Assembly: GCA_023381645.1 (NCBI GenBank)
Contig: JAMCRJ010000068.1
Span: 1-8,610 of the forward strand
Length of the DNA stretch: 8,610 bases
Direction of reading: 5' to 3'
Source: Gammaproteobacteria bacterium
GTDB lineage: Bacteria; Pseudomonadota; Gammaproteobacteria; Acidithiobacillales; Acidithiobacillaceae
Both the position numbers and the translations under genes were made by a program. The notes under the pieces are model-generated. The model saw only the letters and a list, made by a program, of their open reading frames with translations, did no database searches and was not told where the DNA came from. Positions 1 to 8,610 of the stretch are shown one piece after another (within the stretch, counting starts at the first letter, position 1; each line of letters begins with the position of its first letter).

Positions 1-141
1 CAGCAGCACCTCATCCTCACCGGGGTCCTCGTTGGCGATATACGCATTGGAAATGTGGGCGATCTTGATCCCCAACCGGGACTGATTCGCAAACTGATAA
101 GCGAGACTCAACTCCAGACGAAACTGGCTCTGCGTGGGCGA
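1..141 (-). pseudogene. C-terminal part of a PagL-like lipid A 3-O-deacylase (partial)
   Basis: An open minus-strand frame of 47 codons runs off the left edge of the window. From about base 130 leftwards it reads like the last beta-strands of the PagL outer-membrane lipid A deacylase family. A strand-like stretch leads into AYQFANQSRLGIKI and then AHISNA, which matches the family's catalytic His-x-Ser-Asn-Ala motif. A downstream acidic stretch (PGEDE) could hold the catalytic Glu. PagL removes the 3-O-linked acyl chain of lipid A in the outer membrane. There is no start codon: a stop (TAA, 142-144) lies just upstream and the preceding DNA is GNAT coding sequence in another frame. The N-terminal part of the barrel is therefore missing at this locus. 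The family call rests on a short stretch and recall of the family, so it is good but not certain. Confidence 0.6.
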
Positions 142-163
142 TTAATCTCCTGCCCAACCCCTC
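124..163 (-). pseudogene. Displaced 3' piece of the IS21-split GNAT gene
   Basis: Read on the minus strand, the bases next to the left IS21 end encode LGRRLIAHAE. Removing the element and one copy of the CCCTC duplication joins this in frame to the FRGEG at the other side (3071-2788), giving FRGEGLGRRLIAHAE. This is a standard GNAT motif A (R-x-x-G-x-G) followed by its helix. Past this point the frame runs on to a stop at 17-19, but it no longer looks like a GNAT, and a PagL-like sequence appears in another frame. The last third of the acetyltransferase is thus not present here. Confidence 0.65.
159..163. repeat. Target-site duplication, left copy (CCCTC)
   Basis: Five bases directly outside the left IS21 end, identical to the five bases directly outside the right end at 2788-2792. 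One copy is needed to restore the reading frame of the interrupted acetyltransferase. Confidence 0.85.
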
Positions 164-189
164 TGTCACGGATCGGCAATATGGAGCCA
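164..189 (+). repeat. IS21 left terminal inverted repeat
   Basis: 26 bp beginning TGTCACGGATCGGCAATATG. It matches the complement of 2762-2787 with three mismatches (positions 7, 10 and 22). It also contains the first unit of the 25-bp-spaced array that follows. Confidence 0.9.
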
Positions 190-290
190 AATCGTAGTCG
201 GCATAATAGCGCCACCTTGGGATCGGCGTAATGGCGCCACTTCCGGATCGGCATAAAGGCGCCACTTCGGAGTCGCCGTAATGGCGCCAC
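173..290 (+). repeat. Five-unit, 25-bp-period array at the IS21 left end
   Basis: Five copies of a core close to TCGGCRTAATGGCGCCAC begin at 173, 198, 223, 248 and 273, exactly 25 bp apart. The first copy is part of the terminal repeat and is the most divergent (GGAGCC instead of GGCGCC). Copies two to five keep the palindromic GCGCC core. IS21-family elements are known to carry several transposase-binding repeats at each end, so these are probably IstA sites. The 25-bp phase is a little over two helical turns. The array also lies just upstream of istA and could let IstA repress its own gene, which is inference. Confidence 0.88.
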
Positions 291-370
291 CCACCTAGTG
301 CTTCAGTAGGGTCTTGGACTTCCCTTGGATCGGTTACTCTCCCAGCTTTTGTGAGGTAACCATGAGCAAC

Positions 371-377
371 AGGAGGT
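371..377 (+). promoter_or_regulatory. Ribosome binding site that decides the istA start
   Basis: AGGAGGT lies 6 nt before the ATG at 383, a near-perfect Shine-Dalgarno with good spacing. A weaker GAGG (353-356) precedes the ATG at 362, so a 7-residue longer product is possible. Confidence 0.6.
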
Positions 378-382
378 TCCAG

Positions 383-1906
383 ATGTTTACAATTCGCCAA
401 ATTCTGGTGCGTATGCGTCAGGGGGACCGGGATCGGGAGATCGCCCGTTCCGGACTCATGGGACGCAAGAAACTCAGTGTCCTGCGGAATCAGGCAGCAC
501 AGCACGGATGGCTGGATCCCCAGCAGCCTTTACCCGACGACCGCGATCTCGCCATCCTGCAGCAGCACCGCCAGCAGGTCGCACCCGCCCAGTGTGTATC
601 CACTCTCAAAGATCACGAGGAGCAGATCGCCAGGTGGGCAGCAGAAGGCATACAGGGCACCACCATTCACGCTGCCCTGGTGCGCAATCATGGATACACC
701 GGAAGCTACTCTGCAGTGCGTCGCGTACTGCTGCGTGTCGCACCGGTAAAACTGCCTGATGCCACCATGCGCCTCATCTTTGCACCCGGAGAGGCCGCAC
801 AGGTGGACTTCGGTGCTGGTCCCGCGCTGATCGATCCGGTGACCGGAGAGATCCGCAAGACCTGGTTCTTCGTCATGACCCTCTGCTGGTCCCGGCACCA
901 GTATGCCGAGATCGTCTGGAACCAGACGACGATGACCTGGCTCGCCTGTCACCGCCATGCCTTCAATTGGTTTGGTGGTGTGCCAGGCCGGATCATCATT
1001 GATAACGCCAAATGTGCCATCACCAAGGCCTGCATCAATGACCCAACGGTTCAACGGGCCTATGCCGAGTACGCCGAAGGGTATCTGTTCAGGATTGATG
1101 CCTGTCCGCCTCATGACCCTGCAAAAAAAGGAATCGTGGAGTCGGGGGTCAAATATATCAAGAAGGCCTTTCTGCCCCTGCGCGATTTCCACGATCGTGA
1201 TGATGCCAATCGCCAGCTTCAGGAGTGGATCAGGGCAGAAGCGGGCCATCGGATCCACGGCACCACCCGTCAGGCACCCCTCACCCAGTTCGTCGAGGTG
1301 GAGAAATCACTCTTACAGCGCCTGCCGGAGACCCCTCCCGAGATCTCCGAGTGGAAGCAACCCAAGGTACACCGGGATGCCCACGTCCAATATGCCTATT
1401 GTTTCTACTCTGTCCCCTTCCGTCTGATCGGACAACAGCTCTGGTTGCGGGCTACGGATACCACGATCCGGATTTATCGGGAACATGAATTAGTCGCCAC
1501 CCATCCCCGGCTGTTCCAGCACGGCACCGCATCGACCGTGGCCGACCACATGCCGCCAGAAGCACAGGCCTGGCAGAGCCAGGATATACAGTGGTGTCTG
1601 CGGATGGCGGAGGCTATCGGACCGTATTGTTACGGCGTCGTGCACCAACTCTTTGCGGATCGCGTACTGGTCAATTTACGCACCGTGCAAAACATTCTGC
1701 GACTCCGGGACAAGTACACCCCTCAACGACTGGAGGCGGCCTGCGCGCGGGCTTTGCGCTTCAGCAATCCGCGTTATGGCGCGATCTCCCAGATTCTCAA
1801 GAAAGGGTTAGATCAAGAGCCGCTGTCACCCATCACCACCGAATCCGGAAGCACCTATACCAGTGGCGGTCGTTTCCTGCGCGACAGCGCCACGCTATTC
1901 CATTGA
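383..1906 (+). CDS. istA: IS21-family transposase IstA
   Basis: This 507-residue protein is the DDE transposase of the IS21 element; it cuts and joins the element's ends in partnership with IstB. The N-terminus (about 1-50, MFTIRQILVRMRQGDRDREIA) is a helix-turn-helix of the IstA type. The catalytic core holds D142 in AAQVDFGAG, D207 in GRIIIDNAK and E253 in KKGIVESG, each in the normal context. The length is usual for the family. I chose the ATG at 383 because of the strong AGGAGG six bases before it and because family members begin close to this point. Upstream in-frame ATGs at 314 and 362 exist, and 362 also has a moderate GAGG. istB follows after 11 bp. No frameshift or premature stop is visible. 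Confidence 0.93.
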   Translation: MFTIRQILVRMRQGDRDREIARSGLMGRKKLSVLRNQAAQHGWLDPQQPLPDDRDLAILQQHRQQVAPAQCVSTLKDHEEQIARWAAEGIQGTTIHAALVRNHGYTGSYSAVRRVLLRVAPVKLPDATMRLIFAPGEAAQVDFGAGPALIDPVTGEIRKTWFFVMTLCWSRHQYAEIVWNQTTMTWLACHRHAFNWFGGVPGRIIIDNAKCAITKACINDPTVQRAYAEYAEGYLFRIDACPPHDPAKKGIVESGVKYIKKAFLPLRDFHDRDDANRQLQEWIRAEAGHRIHGTTRQAPLTQFVEVEKSLLQRLPETPPEISEWKQPKVHRDAHVQYAYCFYSVPFRLIGQQLWLRATDTTIRIYREHELVATHPRLFQHGTASTVADHMPPEAQAWQSQDIQWCLRMAEAIGPYCYGVVHQLFADRVLVNLRTVQNILRLRDKYTPQRLEAACARALRFSNPRYGAISQILKKGLDQEPLSPITTESGSTYTSGGRFLRDSATLFH

Positions 1907-1917
1907 AAGGAATTCTC

Positions 1918-2703
1918 ATGCAAACCCAAGAATTGAGCAGTAACCTCCGCGCACTGCGCCTGTCCGGCATCCTGGATTCCCTGGAATCTCGCAACCGGCA
2001 AGCTGTCGATGGCCAACTGGCCTATACCGAGTTCCTCGCCATGCTCCTGCAGGATGAAGTGGCTCGCCGTGATCAGCGTAAATTCGACACCCTCCTGCGC
2101 CAGGCCCACTTCCGTAACCACAAAACGCTGGAAGACTTCGCGTTTGACCGGTTACCGAATCTGAATCGTTCTCTGGTTCATGACCTGGCTACCGGCCGTT
2201 ACCTGCAGGAGCGGGCCCCTGTCCTGATCGTCGGACCATGTGGCACCGGCAAGAGCCATCTCGCCCAGGCGCTGGGGCATTGTGCCATCCGCCAGGGAGT
2301 GGATGCGCTCTTTATCACCCAAGGCGATCTGGTGGGCTCTCTGCATGCGGTACGGGCTACCGGCGGTTTTGACCGGCGCTTCCGCCAACTCGCCAAAGTG
2401 ACGCTCCTGATCATCGACGACTTCGGCCTCAAACCCATGCGCCCACCTCATGACGAGGATTTCCACGATCTGATCGCCGAACGCTACGAACGGGTCTCTA
2501 CCATGCTGACCAGCAATCTCGACTTCGTCGAGTGGGGGGACGTCTTCCCGGCCAACCGCATGCTCGGAGTGGCCACACTGGATCGGTTACGCCACGGCGC
2601 CTATCGACTTATCCTGGATGGCGAGAGTTACCGCGCCCCCAGACCGCTCCCGGAATCCCCAAAAAACGCCATTGCGAAAGGAGCCAAAAACACCCATTCT
2701 TAA
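1918..2703 (+). CDS. istB: IS21-family transposition helper ATPase IstB
   Basis: This 261-residue AAA+ ATPase is the helper of the IS21 transposase, related to DnaC, and helps in target capture and in stimulating IstA. Residues 1-90 form the helical N-terminal IstB region. Walker A is GPCGTGKS (106-113), Walker B is LLIIDD (163-168), a TSN sensor-like motif is at 198-200, and DRLRHGAYR is near 222-230. It starts 11 bp after the istA stop. The AAGGA at 1907-1911 is a good ribosome binding site for this ATG; a longer open frame upstream overlaps istA and lacks support. The C-terminal tail (PESPKNAIAKGAKNTHS) is low in complexity. The gene stops about 35 bp before the inner right-end repeat. Confidence 0.94.
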   Translation: MQTQELSSNLRALRLSGILDSLESRNRQAVDGQLAYTEFLAMLLQDEVARRDQRKFDTLLRQAHFRNHKTLEDFAFDRLPNLNRSLVHDLATGRYLQERAPVLIVGPCGTGKSHLAQALGHCAIRQGVDALFITQGDLVGSLHAVRATGGFDRRFRQLAKVTLLIIDDFGLKPMRPPHDEDFHDLIAERYERVSTMLTSNLDFVEWGDVFPANRMLGVATLDRLRHGAYRLILDGESYRAPRPLPESPKNAIAKGAKNTHS

Positions 2704-2737
2704 CACCGTTCGAGACCCCATTTCAGGCACTTTGAAA

Positions 2738-2787
2738 TGGCGCCATTACGCCGCACATCGCTGGCGCCATATTGCCGGTCAGTGACA
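2738..2787 (-). repeat. IS21 right end: terminal inverted repeat and one internal repeat
   Basis: The outer 26 bp (2762-2787) is the right terminal inverted repeat. A second inverted copy of the core, TGGCGCCATTACGCCG, begins at 2738, 24 bp inside the outer copy. No third copy is recognisable further in, so the right end carries two units against five on the left. Confidence 0.88.
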
Positions 2788-2792
2788 CCCTC
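2788..2792. repeat. Target-site duplication, right copy (CCCTC)
   Basis: Direct repeat of 159-163, immediately outside the right IS21 end. It is part of the GEG codons of the interrupted GNAT gene. Confidence 0.85.
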
Positions 2793-3078
2793 TCCACGAA
2801 ACTCTGGAGCGATATAGAACTCTTCAATAATTCCGAATTCTCCCCCAGCATAAAGGGCTTGGCTCCTTCCCAGACACAGGACGCCAGCCGGTTGCGCATC
2901 CGAGTAGGCGAGTATGGGGAAATAGCGCCCCTCGCCCATCATGGCAAGACACAGTTCCGTCGCGCCGTCTTCGTGCATCGGCAGAGGCGCCACAGCCACC
3001 TCCGCGAGCAAACGGGAAACTAGCCGAACAATGATTGGTGCCTCATCAGCCGCTGCAGCGTGATCCTCCATTGATCAT

Positions 3079-4251
3079 TCATTTTCGGGCAAGCAACCCG
3101 AGTATGTCATCAAGGGTCTCTGCCATGCGATCGATCTCATCTTTCGTTACCGTTAATGAAGGCATGAAGCGGAGCGTCGACGGGCGGGGTGCGTTGAGTA
3201 TCAGGCGGCGATCGAGTGCAGCCCCGACAACACTCGGCGCGATCTCTGTAATAGTGTTGAGGGCAAGCAACATTCCGTAGCCCCGGATCTCGCCAAGTCC
3301 ATGGCGCGTCGATATGGTTTCCAGCCGCTTGCGCAGATAGGCCGCCTTAGTGCGAACCCTATCGAGGAAGCCTGGTTGGATAAGGGTTTCGAGCACGGTA
3401 CCAGCAGCAGCCGTCATCAATGGGTTGCCGTTGAAGGTTCCTCCCTGATCGCCATGTTCGAAAGCACATACAGACTCCTTGGCAAGCAGCGCCGAGATCG
3501 GCACGCCGCCACCCAGCCCTTTGCCAAGGGTCATGATGTCGGGTTCGATGCCGCTGTGTTGGTAAGCGAAAAGCAAACCGGTGCGGCCCATGCCGGTCTG
3601 AACCTCATCGAAAATCAATAGCAAGTTATGTTCGCGGGTGAGATCTCGCAGTCCCTGCAAAAAAGCGGGGTCGGCTGGATATACGCCGGCCTCGCCCTGA
3701 ATCGGCTCGAGCATCACAGCAACCGTGCGCTCATTAATGGACGCCTTTACTGCTGCCAAATCATTCAAGGGGACCTTCGGAAAGCCAGGAACTTTCGGCT
3801 CGAACAGTTTCTCCCATTGCGGTTTGCCGGAGGCGGACATGGTTGCCAAGGTCCGGCCATGGAAACCGTGCTCCATGGTGATGATTTCGTAGGCGCCATC
3901 ACAGTGGCGACTACCCCATTTGCGGGCAAGCTTGATCGCCCCCTCGTTGGCCTCGGCACCGCTGTTGCCGAAAAAAACCCGATCAAAGCAGCTATTTGAA
4001 GTGAGCATGTCGGCGAGACGGATCATCGGCTCGTTGTAAAAGGCAGGACTGGCATTGATCAGTCGACCCGCTTGCTCGGCGATAGCTTCGACTAAGACCC
4101 TAGGCGAGTGGCCTAAACAGTTGACCGCCCATCCCTGGATAAAATCGAGGTATTCCTCGCCGCCACGCTCCTTAAGCCAAGAGCCGTGCCCTGACATGAA
4201 CACAAGGTTGGGGCGACTGGTTATTTCCATCAGAGATGAAGAAGATTCCAT
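3079..4251 (-). CDS. Class III PLP-dependent aminotransferase, ArgD-like
   Basis: A 390-residue, full-length fold-type I, class III aminotransferase of the acetylornithine/succinyldiaminopimelate group. These enzymes move an amino group between an omega-amino substrate and 2-oxoglutarate in the cytoplasm. Visible marks are GWAVNCLGH (40-48), SPAFYNEP (68-75), the cofactor phosphate-binding SGAEANE (97-103), HGFHGRT (128-134), [15 protein letters not shown] with D215 contacting the PLP ring, and the Schiff-base lysine K244 in [26 protein letters not shown] and [14 protein letters not shown] resemble the beta-proteobacterial ArgD-like subgroup. The stop is 7 bp before the GNAT gene, so the two were probably one operon. 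There is no strong ribosome binding site before the ATG at 4251; the alternative Met at residue 8 has none either. It could be a housekeeping acetylornithine aminotransferase, but the setting suggests a pathway-specific amine-forming enzyme. Confidence 0.88.
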
Positions 4252-4344
4252 ATTCGATTACCCGATTGCTGTTGCTGTTATGATGTGATTGGATTGGATT
4301 GGTAACAAAGATAACGGATCGCTAGCTGTTCGAAACATTCGCGG

Positions 4345-4714
4345 TTTTGCAATTTCTGCATCGTCCTAGCCATCGGCATTATTGGTCAAGCTGGGCGCAG
4401 GGCGATGGTGGTATCATCCACGATGACGTCGCCAGAGAGCTTTGGCCCGTTCTCCAGCAGCCGCTTTCCGAACTTGGTAAACAGGGCAGCGCCCAGATCA
4501 TGCGCTCCCAGCAAATGACGGAAGTTCGGCAGGCCGGTCACATTCAGGCACGCACTCGCGCCTGAGATCGATCCGGGGGAAACTCGAAGAGCTAGATCAG
4601 CTTGCAGAACCCCGTCTGCGGGATGAGCCTATCCATGCGTACCAGAAATCTCCGCTTGCGGGTCGGCTTGCGATACACCTCGAATCTCGATGCTGCCAAT
4701 ATGCTCTATTTCAT
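4345..4714 (-). pseudogene. Decayed IS5-family transposase remnant
   Basis: The minus strand carries pieces of an IS5-group DDE transposase in three frames. From an ATG at 4714 it reads MK, a TAG stop (4708-4706), then ASRFEVYRKPTRKRRFLVRMDRLIP, the typical N-terminus of these transposases, and a second TAG at 4594-4592. After an internal loss of many residues another frame (about 4546-4401) gives NVTGLPNFRHLLGAHDLG and GDVIVDDTTIA, the region with the first catalytic Asp. Two extra bases at 4399-4400 shift it again to APSLTNNADG, followed by a TAG at 4368-4366. The C-terminal half with the remaining catalytic residues is missing. It lies between the PPTase and aminotransferase genes and is clearly dead. 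Confidence 0.75.
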
Positions 4715-4739
4715 CTCGCGCCCGGTTGAATATCCCAAT

Positions 4740-4764
4740 GCCCGCATCTTAAACGATGGCGGGC
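4740..4764. repeat. Imperfect hairpin near the presumed left end of the IS5 remnant
   Basis: GCCCGCATC and GATGGCGGGC can pair into a 9-bp stem with one bulged base around a 6-base loop (TTAAAC). No T-run follows on either strand, so it is not a convincing terminator. It sits 26 bp upstream of the decayed transposase start, inside what is probably the subterminal part of that element; the actual end may be near 4760-4780 (GGAAACACTGAGCAAGCC on the minus strand). Confidence 0.35.
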
Positions 4765-4782
4765 TTGCTCAGTGTTTCCACA

Positions 4783-5183
4783 ATTTTATTAGCGGCAAAT
4801 TATACAGGACGGGGCGGACGATGCCAACGCCCACTCCACTCAACACGTTCCCAACCAATCATGTCAGCCTTCCCCGGAAGGGCTACCGGCTCGGCCTGCT
4901 CATCGGCATTTTCGAAGATTGCTCAGCTTTCACTCGCGTTACGACCTGCACACTCGCGCCACCACCAATTCGTGGCGCAATCAGCCCATCTGCTTCAACC
5001 GTTTCGTTACCACCACAGTTGCTCCGGGTGCTCTCGACCTGGAACATTCGTCGGGTGGGTCTCTTACCCACTGGAAAGAGGCTTTGCACAGCGTACGCCC
5101 ATATTGGACATATACAAACGGTCCAGATCAAGGCCCGCTACAGTTGCGCAATATGAATCTTACGTTGGGTGATGATCAATGAC
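4783..5183. other. About 400 bp of unassigned DNA, possibly decayed coding sequence
   Basis: No confident gene is seen between the IS5 remnant and the PPTase stop. All three plus-strand frames are open for 250 bases or more, with the frame ending at 5182 reading ...SLTHWKEALHSVRPYWTYTNG... to a stop 2 bp from the PPTase stop codon. On the minus strand, 4922-4800 reads ENADEQAEPVALPGKADMIG and then GWERVEWSGRWHRPPRPV before a stop. It is preceded in another frame by ETVEADGLIAPRIGGGASVQ. This could be a frameshifted C-terminus. I recognise no family in either strand. It may be the tail of a lost pathway gene or DNA brought by the IS5 element. Confidence 0.35.
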
Positions 5184-5939
5184 TTAGAACTCCGGCCAGT
5201 ATTGCCTAATCAGGGGTATCGTTCCGCTGCGTTCCGCTATTGCGACCGCCATCCGGTAATCTGACAAGGGCGAGTAAAGTTTGAGGTGCCACATCTCGCC
5301 GGTGAATGTTTGGTCTTGGTGTACCAGTTCTATTGTCCCGTATTCATTTGCTGGAAGACGGAATCCGAATCTGTTGAGCGGTTGTCGCAGGCCACAGCCG
5401 TTGGCCTTGAGAAGCGACTCTTTCAAGGTCCACAGGGAGTAGAAATGCTCGAAACGCCTTTCGCCTGAGAGCATCTCCAATTGCTCGACCTCCTCAGCCG
5501 TAAACCAGTGGTCGGCGATGTTCAGAATTTCAGCCTTCTGCTGGACAAGTTCAAGATCGATTCCGCAAGGGCGCGTCCCGGCGACGATGCAGGCTGCTAA
5601 TCCCTTAGTGTGCGTAAGATTAAATTGTGGTGTGTCGCCGGGTGATGTCGAAACCAGTGCCGGCTTTCCAAGAGGATCTCGCTGGAACCGGAGACTGGGG
5701 GAGGGTATTCCGGTATAGACAGAGAGCGCGTGGCGCAGCAGGGTATGGGCGCAGAGATAGAGATCCCGGTCTTCTTGAAAGTGGAAGGCATCGTGGCGAA
5801 TGCGTTCGTCGGCAGACAATATCTGAAGCCGAACCTTTCGCCACTGATCGGTCGCCGGGTTCGGTGGAGCGGCGAGCCAGACACTAATCTCACCGGGATC
5901 CCCACCGATTTGTTCTAAGCTTGACGCGCTTCTAAACAT
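5184..5939 (-). CDS. Sfp-type 4'-phosphopantetheinyl transferase
   Basis: This 251-residue enzyme attaches the 4'-phosphopantetheine arm of coenzyme A to a serine of a carrier protein, turning it from apo to holo form. It is of the long two-lobed Sfp/HetI type used for NRPS and PKS carriers, not the short AcpS type. Key signs are FQRDPLGKP (85-93), FNLTH (106-110), the Mg-binding GIDLE with D128 and E130 (126-130), and WTLKESLLKA (170-179) with E174 and K178. All are intact. The ATG is 6 bp after the condensation gene's stop without a clear ribosome binding site, so translation is probably coupled. No carrier protein lies in the window; its partner must be elsewhere or lost. This is the last intact gene of its cluster before the broken region. 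Confidence 0.93.
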   Translation of the reverse strand: MFRSASSLEQIGGDPGEISVWLAAPPNPATDQWRKVRLQILSADERIRHDAFHFQEDRDLYLCAHTLLRHALSVYTGIPSPSLRFQRDPLGKPALVSTSPGDTPQFNLTHTKGLAACIVAGTRPCGIDLELVQQKAEILNIADHWFTAEEVEQLEMLSGERRFEHFYSLWTLKESLLKANGCGLRQPLNRFGFRLPANEYGTIELVHQDQTFTGEMWHLKLYSPLSDYRMAVAIAERSGTIPLIRQYWPEF

Positions 5940-5945
5940 GGCGAC

Positions 5946-7274
5946 TTAATATTGCCGCATAGTATTCGCAACACAGCCTTGGGCTTTTGAGGCGTGGCGT
6001 GGCACGGCACGCCCCAATTGATGCAGCAGCTCGCTGACCTGAACGACCTTCGCATGTGAAACACACGCGGGATCGCCTATCAACCGAATTTCTAAAACAG
6101 GTGACCCAAATGCAACCAGAGTGAGCGGAAAGCCGGTAGAGCCGTACTCCTCCACACGGCATCCGAGGAGGAAAGGATGTGCGGTGTTAATCTGTGTTTC
6201 TAGTGATTGATGATCGTAGACGACAAGTGTCTCGAACAGGTGGTGCCCCGAGGTTATGCTGACCCAACGATGTATGTCGGCCAAGGATGTCTGTGCAAAA
6301 AGGCGTAGTGCAAGGTTCTGTCTGCGAAGGTCAACGACCGTTTCGGCGAAAGTGCGATTGCCATGGCCCGTCCAGCGCAGCGGTAGCATATTGATGTAGA
6401 GGCCGGGACCATCGAATACATGACCGTTGACATAACGACCGGCGAGCGTAACACCGAATATGATGTCGAGAGAGCCGGTGACTATGCTCAACATGGTGCA
6501 CCAAAGGCCATGAAGGGTGCTGGCGAGGGTGACTCCATGCTGTTCCGACCATTGAACCAGCGCCTGGGTATCCGCAGCGCTCAGTCGCTTCACCACGGTG
6601 GCCTCAGTCTCTGTGTCGTTCGATCTCGGGAGATCCTTTTGGCACAACGAAGGCGGCGGTGTGTATTCGTTGAAAATGCGCTGCCAGTGACTTTTCGCGG
6701 CTTCCCGATCCAGGGTCTCCAACGACACGATGAACTCCCGGAACGGACGGTGTAGCGGTGCTTTGTGGATTTGGCCCGCGAGGATCTGTCGGTAGGCGCG
6801 GAACAGCGCGTCCAGCAACAGGACGTAGGAGCGGCCGTCGAACAGGATGTGATGCAACGTCCAGACCAGTATCGAGCAGCCGTCGCAGATAATGTGCACC
6901 AGCCGTGCCAGTGGCGCTACCTCGATGTCGAAAGGAGTGTTTCTGCTTTCGAGGGAGAGGCGTTTGATTTCCTGTTCGCTGTTATCCGGAAGCTCGATAA
7001 GCTTGACCCCCTGATTCACAGACTCCGCCACCTCTTGGAAAGGTCCGCCGACCGTCCGCCAATTCATATAGGTGCGCAAAATTGGCTCGTCTGCCACCAG
7101 ATGCCCCCACGCTTTTTGCAACGTCGCGTGGTCGAGCTTCGTTCCGAGACGAAGAACGAGCTGTTCGACGTCGACGGGTTCATTGCGACGCATTAGTGTC
7201 CGCAAATGCATGCCGCTCTGTGTCGGAGAGAGGGGATACCGAACTACGGCATTCTTGTCGTCACTCCCGACCAT
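5946..7274 (-). CDS. Free-standing NRPS-type condensation-domain protein
   Basis: A 442-residue protein consisting of one condensation domain, with no adenylation, carrier or thioesterase part. Such domains join a carrier-bound acyl or aminoacyl thioester to an amine or hydroxyl acceptor. Motifs in order are YPLSPTQSGMH (13-23, like the C1 motif), HHILFDG (141-147), the HHxxxDG active site with the second His catalytic, IIFGVTLAGR (271-280), and GPGLYINMLPLR (289-300), the C5-type motif. The length is that of a normal two-lobed domain, as in stand-alone enzymes such as VibH or SgcC5. It starts 14 bp inside the upstream GNAT gene and is followed 6 bp later by the PPTase, so the three form a coupled unit. 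The acceptor and donor cannot be told from the sequence. Confidence 0.9.
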   Translation of the reverse strand: MVGSDDKNAVVRYPLSPTQSGMHLRTLMRRNEPVDVEQLVLRLGTKLDHATLQKAWGHLVADEPILRTYMNWRTVGGPFQEVAESVNQGVKLIELPDNSEQEIKRLSLESRNTPFDIEVAPLARLVHIICDGCSILVWTLHHILFDGRSYVLLLDALFRAYRQILAGQIHKAPLHRPFREFIVSLETLDREAAKSHWQRIFNEYTPPPSLCQKDLPRSNDTETEATVVKRLSAADTQALVQWSEQHGVTLASTLHGLWCTMLSIVTGSLDIIFGVTLAGRYVNGHVFDGPGLYINMLPLRWTGHGNRTFAETVVDLRRQNLALRLFAQTSLADIHRWVSITSGHHLFETLVVYDHQSLETQINTAHPFLLGCRVEEYGSTGFPLTLVAFGSPVLEIRLIGDPACVSHAKVVQVSELLHQLGRAVPRHASKAQGCVANTMRQY

Positions 7275-7719
7275 GGTCCCCTCCCAGCCGTCGCGTCATG
7301 AGTACGCGGGCGCCTCCCAAGCCATCGTAATTCTCCACTACAGGTATTCCGTTTTCGTCAGGTTTTCCCGGATCAAAGCAGAATCCGAGGTGTCGATGGA
7401 AGGCGAGTGAGTTTATATTCGTCGGCGCGGTGACCGCATGTACGCTGGTGCCGCCAAGGGCCTTAACGACAGAAAAGAGATGGAGATAGAGATCCTGTCC
7501 GATTCCTTTGCGTCTAAATTCAGGATCAACGCCGATGAAGTGCGAATAAGCGCGATCAGGGAGGGTCTGGGACATGAATGCTGCGACAAAACCAACAATT
7601 TTGCCGTTTTCTTCCCAGACTGCACAGCAGAAATTGGTATCGATATTGAATCGATAAACAGGAAGTTCTCGCCAGAAATGAGCTATCGTCAATTTTGGTG
7701 TATGAGCGTGTTCTAACAT
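7261..7719 (-). CDS. GNAT-family N-acetyltransferase, 5' end replaced by IS256 sequence
   Basis: The frame encodes 152 residues with a GNAT core: strands around NFCCAVWEENGKIVGFVAAFM (29-49), motif A VDPEFRRKGIGQDLY (R-R-K-G-I-G, about 69-83), and the C-terminal NINSLAFHRHLGF (about 100-112). It should bind acetyl-CoA. The first 14 or so residues (MLEHAHTPKLTIAH) appear to be encoded by the end of the neighbouring IS256 element: the ATG is 3 bp from the transposase stop, in the same frame. The usual N-terminal strand and two helices (about 50 residues), which shape the substrate pocket, are missing. The gene overlaps the condensation gene by 14 bp. The protein may be made but is probably not functional. 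Its substrate is unknown. Confidence 0.75.
   Translation of the reverse strand: MLEHAHTPKLTIAHFWRELPVYRFNIDTNFCCAVWEENGKIVGFVAAFMSQTLPDRAYSHFIGVDPEFRRKGIGQDLYLHLFSVVKALGGTSVHAVTAPTNINSLAFHRHLGFCFDPGKPDENGIPVVENYDGLGGARVLMTRRLGGDHGRE
7278..7285 (-). promoter_or_regulatory. Ribosome binding site of the condensation gene, inside the GNAT gene
   Basis: GGGAGGGG on the minus strand, with its GGAGG core 5 nt before the ATG at 7274. It lies in the last codons of the upstream acetyltransferase, whose stop is at 7261-7263, so the two genes overlap by 14 bp and are probably co-translated. Confidence 0.6.
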
Positions 7720-8610
7720 ATCTTAGGCGGCGTCCTGTTGGTCCCCCGGCAGGGTTTCATTGGCCGGCAATCCATCGGTGAATTTTACCCCCGCAAAGAG
7801 ATCACGCACTTTCTCCGGATGGAAAATGGCGATCCAGCACTTTTCGGCCTGCTGCAGCATTTTGAAGCCCAATCCAATGAAACTGTTGCGCGATACGCAG
7901 TTTTTGGTGCGCGACGTCCGATGGCGCACAGTGGCAAAGGTCGACTCAATGGCATTGGTGGTGCGGATGTGTCGCCAATGTTCGGCCGGATAATCATAGC
8001 AATTCCACCCGATCCTTTTCCAGCTTGGCCACGGCCTTGGGATACTTCGCCTGGTAGTTGCGCACAAAGACCTCCAGGGCTTTCTCCGCAGCCTTCCGGC
8101 TCTCGGCCATCCAGATTTCCTGCAGTGCCGCCTTCGCCTTACCCTGCTTGGATTTGGGCAGTTCGTTGAGGATGTTGGCAGTCTTGTGCACCCAGCAGCG
8201 CTGCTGGCGGGTTTCGGGATACGCTTCATCCAATGCGGCCCAGAAGCCCATGGCGCCATCACCAATAGCCAGTAAGGGTGCGGCTTCCAGACCACGAGCC
8301 TGCAGGTCGCGCAGAATCTCCAGCCAGGAGGCCTTGGATTCTCGCAGGCCATCGCTGACACTGACCAGTTCCTTCTTCCCGTCCGCCGTCACGCCAATAA
8401 TCACCAGCAGGCAGATGCGCGGATCCTCCTCCGCACGCAGATGGGTATAGACGCCATCCACCCACCAGTAGGCATATCGTTTGCCTTCCAGGGAACGGCG
8501 TTGCCAGGCGGCATGCTCTTCCGTCCACTGCGCCTTGAGGCGTCCCAATGCCGCCGGGGAAAGTCCCTTGGCCTCTTCGCCCAGGAGGATAGAAAGCGCC
8601 TCCTGCATGT
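7680..8610 (-). mobile_element. Partial IS256-family insertion sequence (3' end; continues past the window)
   Basis: The minus strand carries most of an IS256-type transposase, and after its stop come about 40 bases that look like the family's terminal inverted repeat. Read inwards on the plus strand this is about 7680-7708: GAGCTATCGTCAATTTTGGT and onward, resembling the GTC-AA-TTTTG-GTGTA pattern of IS256 ends. The exact boundary cannot be proved because the other end and its target duplication are outside the window. The element has entered a GNAT gene. Confidence 0.7.
7723..8608 (-). pseudogene. IS256-family transposase, frameshifted and partial
   Basis: The first frame (8608-7994) carries the middle of a mutator-type DDE transposase: YWWVDGVYTHLR with the first catalytic Asp, LLAIGDGAMGFWAAL with the second, and RQQRCWVHKTANILNELPKS. 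It reads to KDRVELL and then hits a stop at 7996-7994. The protein resumes in another frame as YDYPAEHWRHIRTTNAIEST with the catalytic Glu, then FATVRHRTSRTKN to a stop at 7723. Family members have two residues (often Ala-Phe) between these pieces, so the lesion fits a loss of about 8 bases near 8000. About the first 90 residues lie past the window edge. The Met at 8608 is probably internal. The lesion should inactivate the transposase. Confidence 0.88.

Follow-up and report, generated by a model that had tools for sequence, protein, structure and literature searches.

Whether three adjacent genes for a GNAT, a free-standing condensation protein (C2) and an Sfp-type phosphopantetheinyl transferase (PPTase) can be a biosynthetic system by themselves is the question raised by one locus of an Acidithiobacillaceae genome, lying in an 8,610-nt stretch of contig JAMCRJ010000068.1 that we analysed as a whole and refer to as the window. 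The original prediction took the trio for a minimal system that lacks both an adenylation (A) domain and a carrier. Comparison of homologous sequences instead indicates that the three open reading frames (ORFs) are the broken-off end of a longer cluster and not a self-contained minimal cassette. They probably represent the 3' portion of a hybrid PKS/NRPS biosynthetic cluster trimmed by insertion sequences (IS), in which C2 would release the chain and the PPTase would prime the carriers.

Pfam supports each of the three genes, which rules out chance ORFs, and all three lie on the minus strand at the positions first given for them, with a 14-bp overlap between the GNAT and C2 genes and a 6-bp gap between the C2 and PPTase genes (Table 1). 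C2 matches most of the Pfam Condensation profile (positions 5-372 of 456, 179.4 bits), and the expected HHxxxDG motif is present and kept in 4 of 4 aligned proteins. Sfp-type PPTases have a two-half fold with the motifs GxDxE and (F/W)xxKE(A/S)xxK; the window protein contains both motifs, matches both Pfam halves (ACPS, 65 bits; AASDHPPT_N, 45 bits) and also matches the Sfp structure 1qr0. Neither an A domain nor a carrier was found by Pfam in the nine window ORFs searched, and no luxR or luxI was seen among them.

Table 1. Features located in the window (positions counted from its first letter)
Feature	Position	Strand	Evidence or remark
Second GNAT remnant, 37 bp past IS21	128..164	minus	92% to the relative, then the match ends
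IS21-family element within second GNAT	165..2787	plus	istA 314-1906, istB ~1918-2703
Second GNAT gene, 5' part cut by IS21	2788..3071	minus	Pfam; match to the relative
ArgD-like class III aminotransferase	3079..4251	minus	NF002985, 631 bits vs cut-off 568; second copy type in the relative
Stretch not alignable with the relative, ~820 bp	4357..5179		Between aminotransferase and PPTase
Sfp-type phosphopantetheinyl transferase	5184..5939	minus	Pfam; GIDLE and WTLKESLLK
Free-standing condensation protein (C2)	5946..7274	minus	Pfam Condensation; HHILFDG at residue 141
GNAT ORF	7261..7719	minus	Pfam GNAT, 66 bits; start (~7680-7719) within IS256 end, family N-terminus gone
IS256-family element end and frame-broken transposase (7723-8608)	7680..8610	minus	Runs off the window

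A homologous locus exists in the metagenome-assembled genome (MAG) of Halothiobacillus sp. STB_50 (contig NZ_JAQTTX010000007.1; hereafter the relative), where GNAT, C, PPTase, ArgD-like and GNAT genes follow one another in the same order as in the window, with a DNA identity of 89% over window positions 5180-7620 and 88% over 2788-4356 (2.4 and 1.6 kb, respectively). The shared block is thus longer than three genes, the ArgD-like aminotransferase and the second GNAT coming next. The 14-bp GNAT/C overlap recurs in the relative (GNAT 9523-10014, C from 10001, in locus coordinates), whereas the C/PPTase junction there is a 4-bp overlap instead of the 6-bp gap, and the 3' end of the window C gene differs from the relative's by several indels. 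In steps of 200 bp, identity to the relative is 75-87% at 5180-6380 and 90-98% at 6380-7620, reaching about 97% near the GNAT; recombination may account for this mosaic pattern.

Unlike the window, the relative has A-T, PKS and monooxygenase genes upstream of the block, and its copy of the block is free of IS21 and IS256 cuts. Its cluster, with borders drawn from gene order, encodes successively a 368-aa protein without a Pfam match, an FMN-binding protein, a class III aminotransferase, an FrhB/FdhB-like protein, an EPSP-synthase-like (AroA-like) protein, an alcohol-dehydrogenase-like protein, an A-T protein (704 aa), a KS-AT-KR-ACP protein (1563 aa), a MupA/Atu3671-family monooxygenase (TIGR04020), another condensation protein (C1), a KASIII-like protein, an esterase/flavin-reductase fusion, the GNAT, C2, the PPTase, the ArgD-like enzyme, the second GNAT, LuxR, a DUF4902 protein and LuxI. 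The A domain and the carriers lie about 6-13 kb upstream of C2, and LuxR and LuxI about 1.4 and 2.8 kb downstream of the shared block. The fusion of a putative esterase with a flavin reductase occupies 7386-9434 in the relative's locus coordinates, inside the biosynthetic cluster. We classify this parent cluster as a small, uncharacterised hybrid PKS/NRPS cluster. The 2.7-Mb MAG contains two C-domain matches, both within the cluster, while one of its four AMP-binding matches, two of its six carrier matches and one of its two ACPS-family matches (the cluster PPTase) belong there. Since further ArgD-like and AroA-like relatives, some of them other enzymes of the same Pfam families, are found elsewhere in this genome, the cluster copies are probably pathway-specific.

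The original prediction was correct in that C2 is free-standing, in the relative as well, that its gene lies beside a PPTase gene, and that the carriers are on other proteins. However, the lack of an A domain and a carrier, which holds for the window ORFs searched, does not extend to the relative, whose contig encodes an A-T protein and a PKS ACP; and the proposal of a system working without them is not supported, as in the relative an A-T NRPS protein, a PKS of the KS-AT-KR-ACP type and tailoring enzymes are encoded ahead of these genes. The same gene order does recur in one Halothiobacillus MAG, but A-T and PKS carriers co-occur with it there. The homologous locus is therefore the tail of a larger cluster, the very arrangement named beforehand as speaking against a minimal system, although it is seen in one genome and is not tied to a known product.

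The edges of the block in the window indicate how it was separated from such a cluster. The IS21-family element within the second GNAT has CCCTC on both sides (160-164 and 2788-2792). Positions 1-127 of the window match neither the relative nor any identified IS end and mark a second breakpoint adjoining IS21. At the opposite edge, similarity to the relative ends at 7620, and the sequence from about 7680 on is an IS256 end common to three Acidithiobacillus copies, so that the GNAT ORF takes its ATG (7719) and some 13 codons from transposon DNA; the intervening 60 bp (7621-7679) have no source among the loci compared. Of the 26 plasmid records matched by the relative's GNAT, 24 cover at least 80% of its length, and the alignment with plasmid-borne GNATs of Priestia starts at residue 1 (45% in the best row), whereas 12 of the 25 records matched by the window GNAT reach that coverage, with lower scores and from residue 8 at best. 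By these alignments, the window GNAT ORF is not an intact gene but one that has lost the family N-terminus. The top-ranked plasmid records for both IS21 and IS256 are from Acidithiobacillus, in tallies where some records sit in higher identity bands over shorter parts; the host is therefore likely to be an acidophile. Within the stretch between the aminotransferase and PPTase genes, about 240 bp (4864-5101) match 22 plasmid records (Paraburkholderia 11, Microvirga 4, and others), at 73-80% identity in the 10 listed; no annotated feature covers this repeat in the annotated records among the best 10 of the 22, and the two ORFs over it have no Pfam match. It is likely the remnant of an unnamed mobile element.

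The C, PPTase and ArgD-like ORFs are still open in the window. Their dN/dS values against the relative are 0.33, 0.22 and 0.095, respectively, compared with 0.31 for the second GNAT piece and 0.58 for the GNAT ORF with its unrelated start included; with their motifs kept, the window C and PPTase look conserved. Counting private changes at sites where the remaining three C sequences are identical gives 15 for the window copy and 21 for the Halothiobacillus copy, which shows no excess decay in the window, in a comparison that cannot date the IS insertions. As both window GNATs are broken and the upstream part is absent from the contig, the block is either a relict or, if functional at all, dependent on carriers encoded elsewhere.

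The distribution of C2 further rules out a widespread independent cassette. A protein search with C2, in which a capped list of 7997 candidates was scored and relatives may thus be missed, returned nine matches including the window's own, three others being 65-87% identical and one of these from Halothiobacillus sp., and a genome scan returned four loci, one at 87% (Halothiobacillus) and three at 25%. With a profile built from the C alignment, the relative itself was the only match among 27 genomes of its order, and at E ≤ 1e-50 there were matches in 4 of 398 genomes of its phylum, the relative and three others. In these three, the match is part of an open frame of 1871-4629 aa and hence of a modular NRPS, leaving the relative as the only one of the 398 genomes with a close C2 relative. 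Plasmid records matching the relative's C protein number 513, all below 60% identity. PPTases at 78-84% identity occur in three further entries among the best 120 of 566 matches, from sources whose longest contigs measure 12.9-25.9 kb.

Synteny, the 88-89% DNA identity, the domains of the upstream genes and the IS boundaries all argue for an IS-trimmed part of a larger cluster; against it counts that the full arrangement is seen in one genome only. In such a pathway, the PPTase would prime the carrier domains of the A-T and PKS proteins, and A-T would activate a unit, which the PKS would lengthen and the flavin monooxygenase oxidise. C2 would then take the carrier-bound chain and either release it as an amide on an amine, which the ArgD-like enzyme may make, or join it to a second carrier-bound unit, while the GNATs would acetylate a precursor or the product. 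An amide or an ester conjugate is a possible product. In the relative, C2 is the only one of the two C proteins with an intact HHxxxDG (HHILFDG, against HNLVFDA in C1), and gene order puts it, as a free-standing protein, next to an assembly line that works with carriers, as expected of release-type enzymes.

Free-standing C enzymes of known or proposed function offer partial models. VibH, the vibriobactin amide synthase, is a free-standing C enzyme like C2 and uses a carrier-bound acyl group and a soluble amine, but it belongs to a siderophore pathway and does not match C2 at E ≤ 0.001. A PDB search with C2 gave 42 matches at this threshold, the nearest being modular C domains (McyB, PvdL), and neither 1l5a nor 6cgo, which we take to be VibH and Bamb_5915, respectively, was among them. 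C1, a free-standing protein at 4836-6281 in the relative's locus coordinates, has a degenerate motif, yet it matches both structures. It may accordingly be C1, in spite of its degenerate motif, that acts as the release-type enzyme, and C2 may, by analogy, work like release enzymes of the VibH/Bamb_5915 type. The stand-alone enacyloxin enzyme Bamb_5915 couples a carrier-bound acyl group to a free hydroxy/amino-cyclohexane carboxylate, and the relative's cluster has an AroA-like copy; unlike C2, which begins at the C core, Bamb_5915 carries a beta-hairpin docking domain (PMC9113145, in the part covered). In the zeamine cluster, the free-standing C protein Zmn19 is proposed to form the releasing amide and, as in the relative, accompanies a KS-AT-KR-ACP module (Zmn18, which adjoins it); that cluster differs in also having large NRPSs, a PUFA-like synthase and exporters, and Zmn19 reads PHxxxDG, according to the sections of PMC3547906 covered. 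The Oaa fatty-acid-amide system consists of discrete proteins (OaaA, OaaACP and OaaC) including a free-standing C enzyme, OaaC, but it has its own A and ACP proteins, and its class frequently, not universally, reads DHxxxDS (PMC13142362, covered in part). A system of this type is ruled out for the window, where C2 reads HHILFDG and no free A or ACP gene adjoins it among the nine ORFs searched.

The kinship of C2 to modular C domains is what would be expected if C2 instead coupled the units carried by the A-T and PKS proteins within the assembly line, and the product were released by the esterase or the KASIII-like protein, both encoded in the cluster. We regard this as rather unlikely, as the cluster has only two large carrier proteins, already linked by the KS, and C2 lies downstream of the tailoring genes; that the KASIII-like protein or the esterase releases the chain could nonetheless be the case. 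It is also possible, but in our estimate unlikely, that the product of the parent cluster belongs to a class not yet described: an amino-acid/polyketide chain that a free-standing C protein would release onto an amine, itself built by the dedicated AroA-like and ArgD-like enzymes, with quorum sensing controlling the pathway in sulfur-oxidising autotrophs. The window would then be the IS-trimmed copy of an acidophile, with C2 and the PPTase still working with carriers elsewhere. A cluster merely split by IS elements, with the A-T/PKS part elsewhere in the window's genome and C2 and the PPTase acting in trans, would explain the open C, PPTase and ArgD-like ORFs and the absence of excess private changes in C2; both GNATs are broken, however, and no KASIII-like protein was found at the expected 85-90% identity, the nearest among the matches listed being at 75%, which makes this quite improbable. 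A self-contained cassette, in which the PPTase would activate a host carrier such as the fatty-acid ACP, C2 would move an acyl chain to an amine and the GNAT would acetylate, is very unlikely: the ORFs overlap, the motifs are intact, the dN/dS values of the PPTase (0.22) and C2 (0.33) suit it, and free-standing C enzymes with separate ACPs exist, but the relative has these genes behind an A-T/PKS line, the window GNAT is truncated, and C2 has HHxxxDG rather than the DHxxxDS frequent in fatty-acid-amide enzymes (PMC13142362, in the part covered).

For the trimmed PKS/NRPS cluster that we favour, neither a description nor a named product of the parent was found in the literature on Halothiobacillus clusters, Acidithiobacillus NRPS clusters and stand-alone C/PPTase/GNAT combinations, a coverage that most subscription journals fall outside. 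A table of 181 PKS-NRPS hybrid clusters from mine drainage does not name it in the part covered (PMC9734747), and the portion of a 2018 study that was covered states that no lux-linked cluster was known in Acidithiobacillia (PMC5872303). If the parent cluster is active, it would be a LuxR/LuxI-adjacent PKS/NRPS pathway in a sulfur oxidiser. An apparently minimal C and PPTase cassette can thus be the scar of a larger assembly line, which calls for caution in cluster mining of IS-rich metagenomes.

The KASIII-like gene, present in 3 of 369 genomes of the class at E ≤ 1e-15 including the relative, led nowhere as a marker of the cluster. One match adjoins a different small cluster (locus 8670-16096), in which two KASIII-like genes flank an AurF N-oxygenase gene beside an NRPS with two carriers, a C domain, an A domain and a thioesterase.
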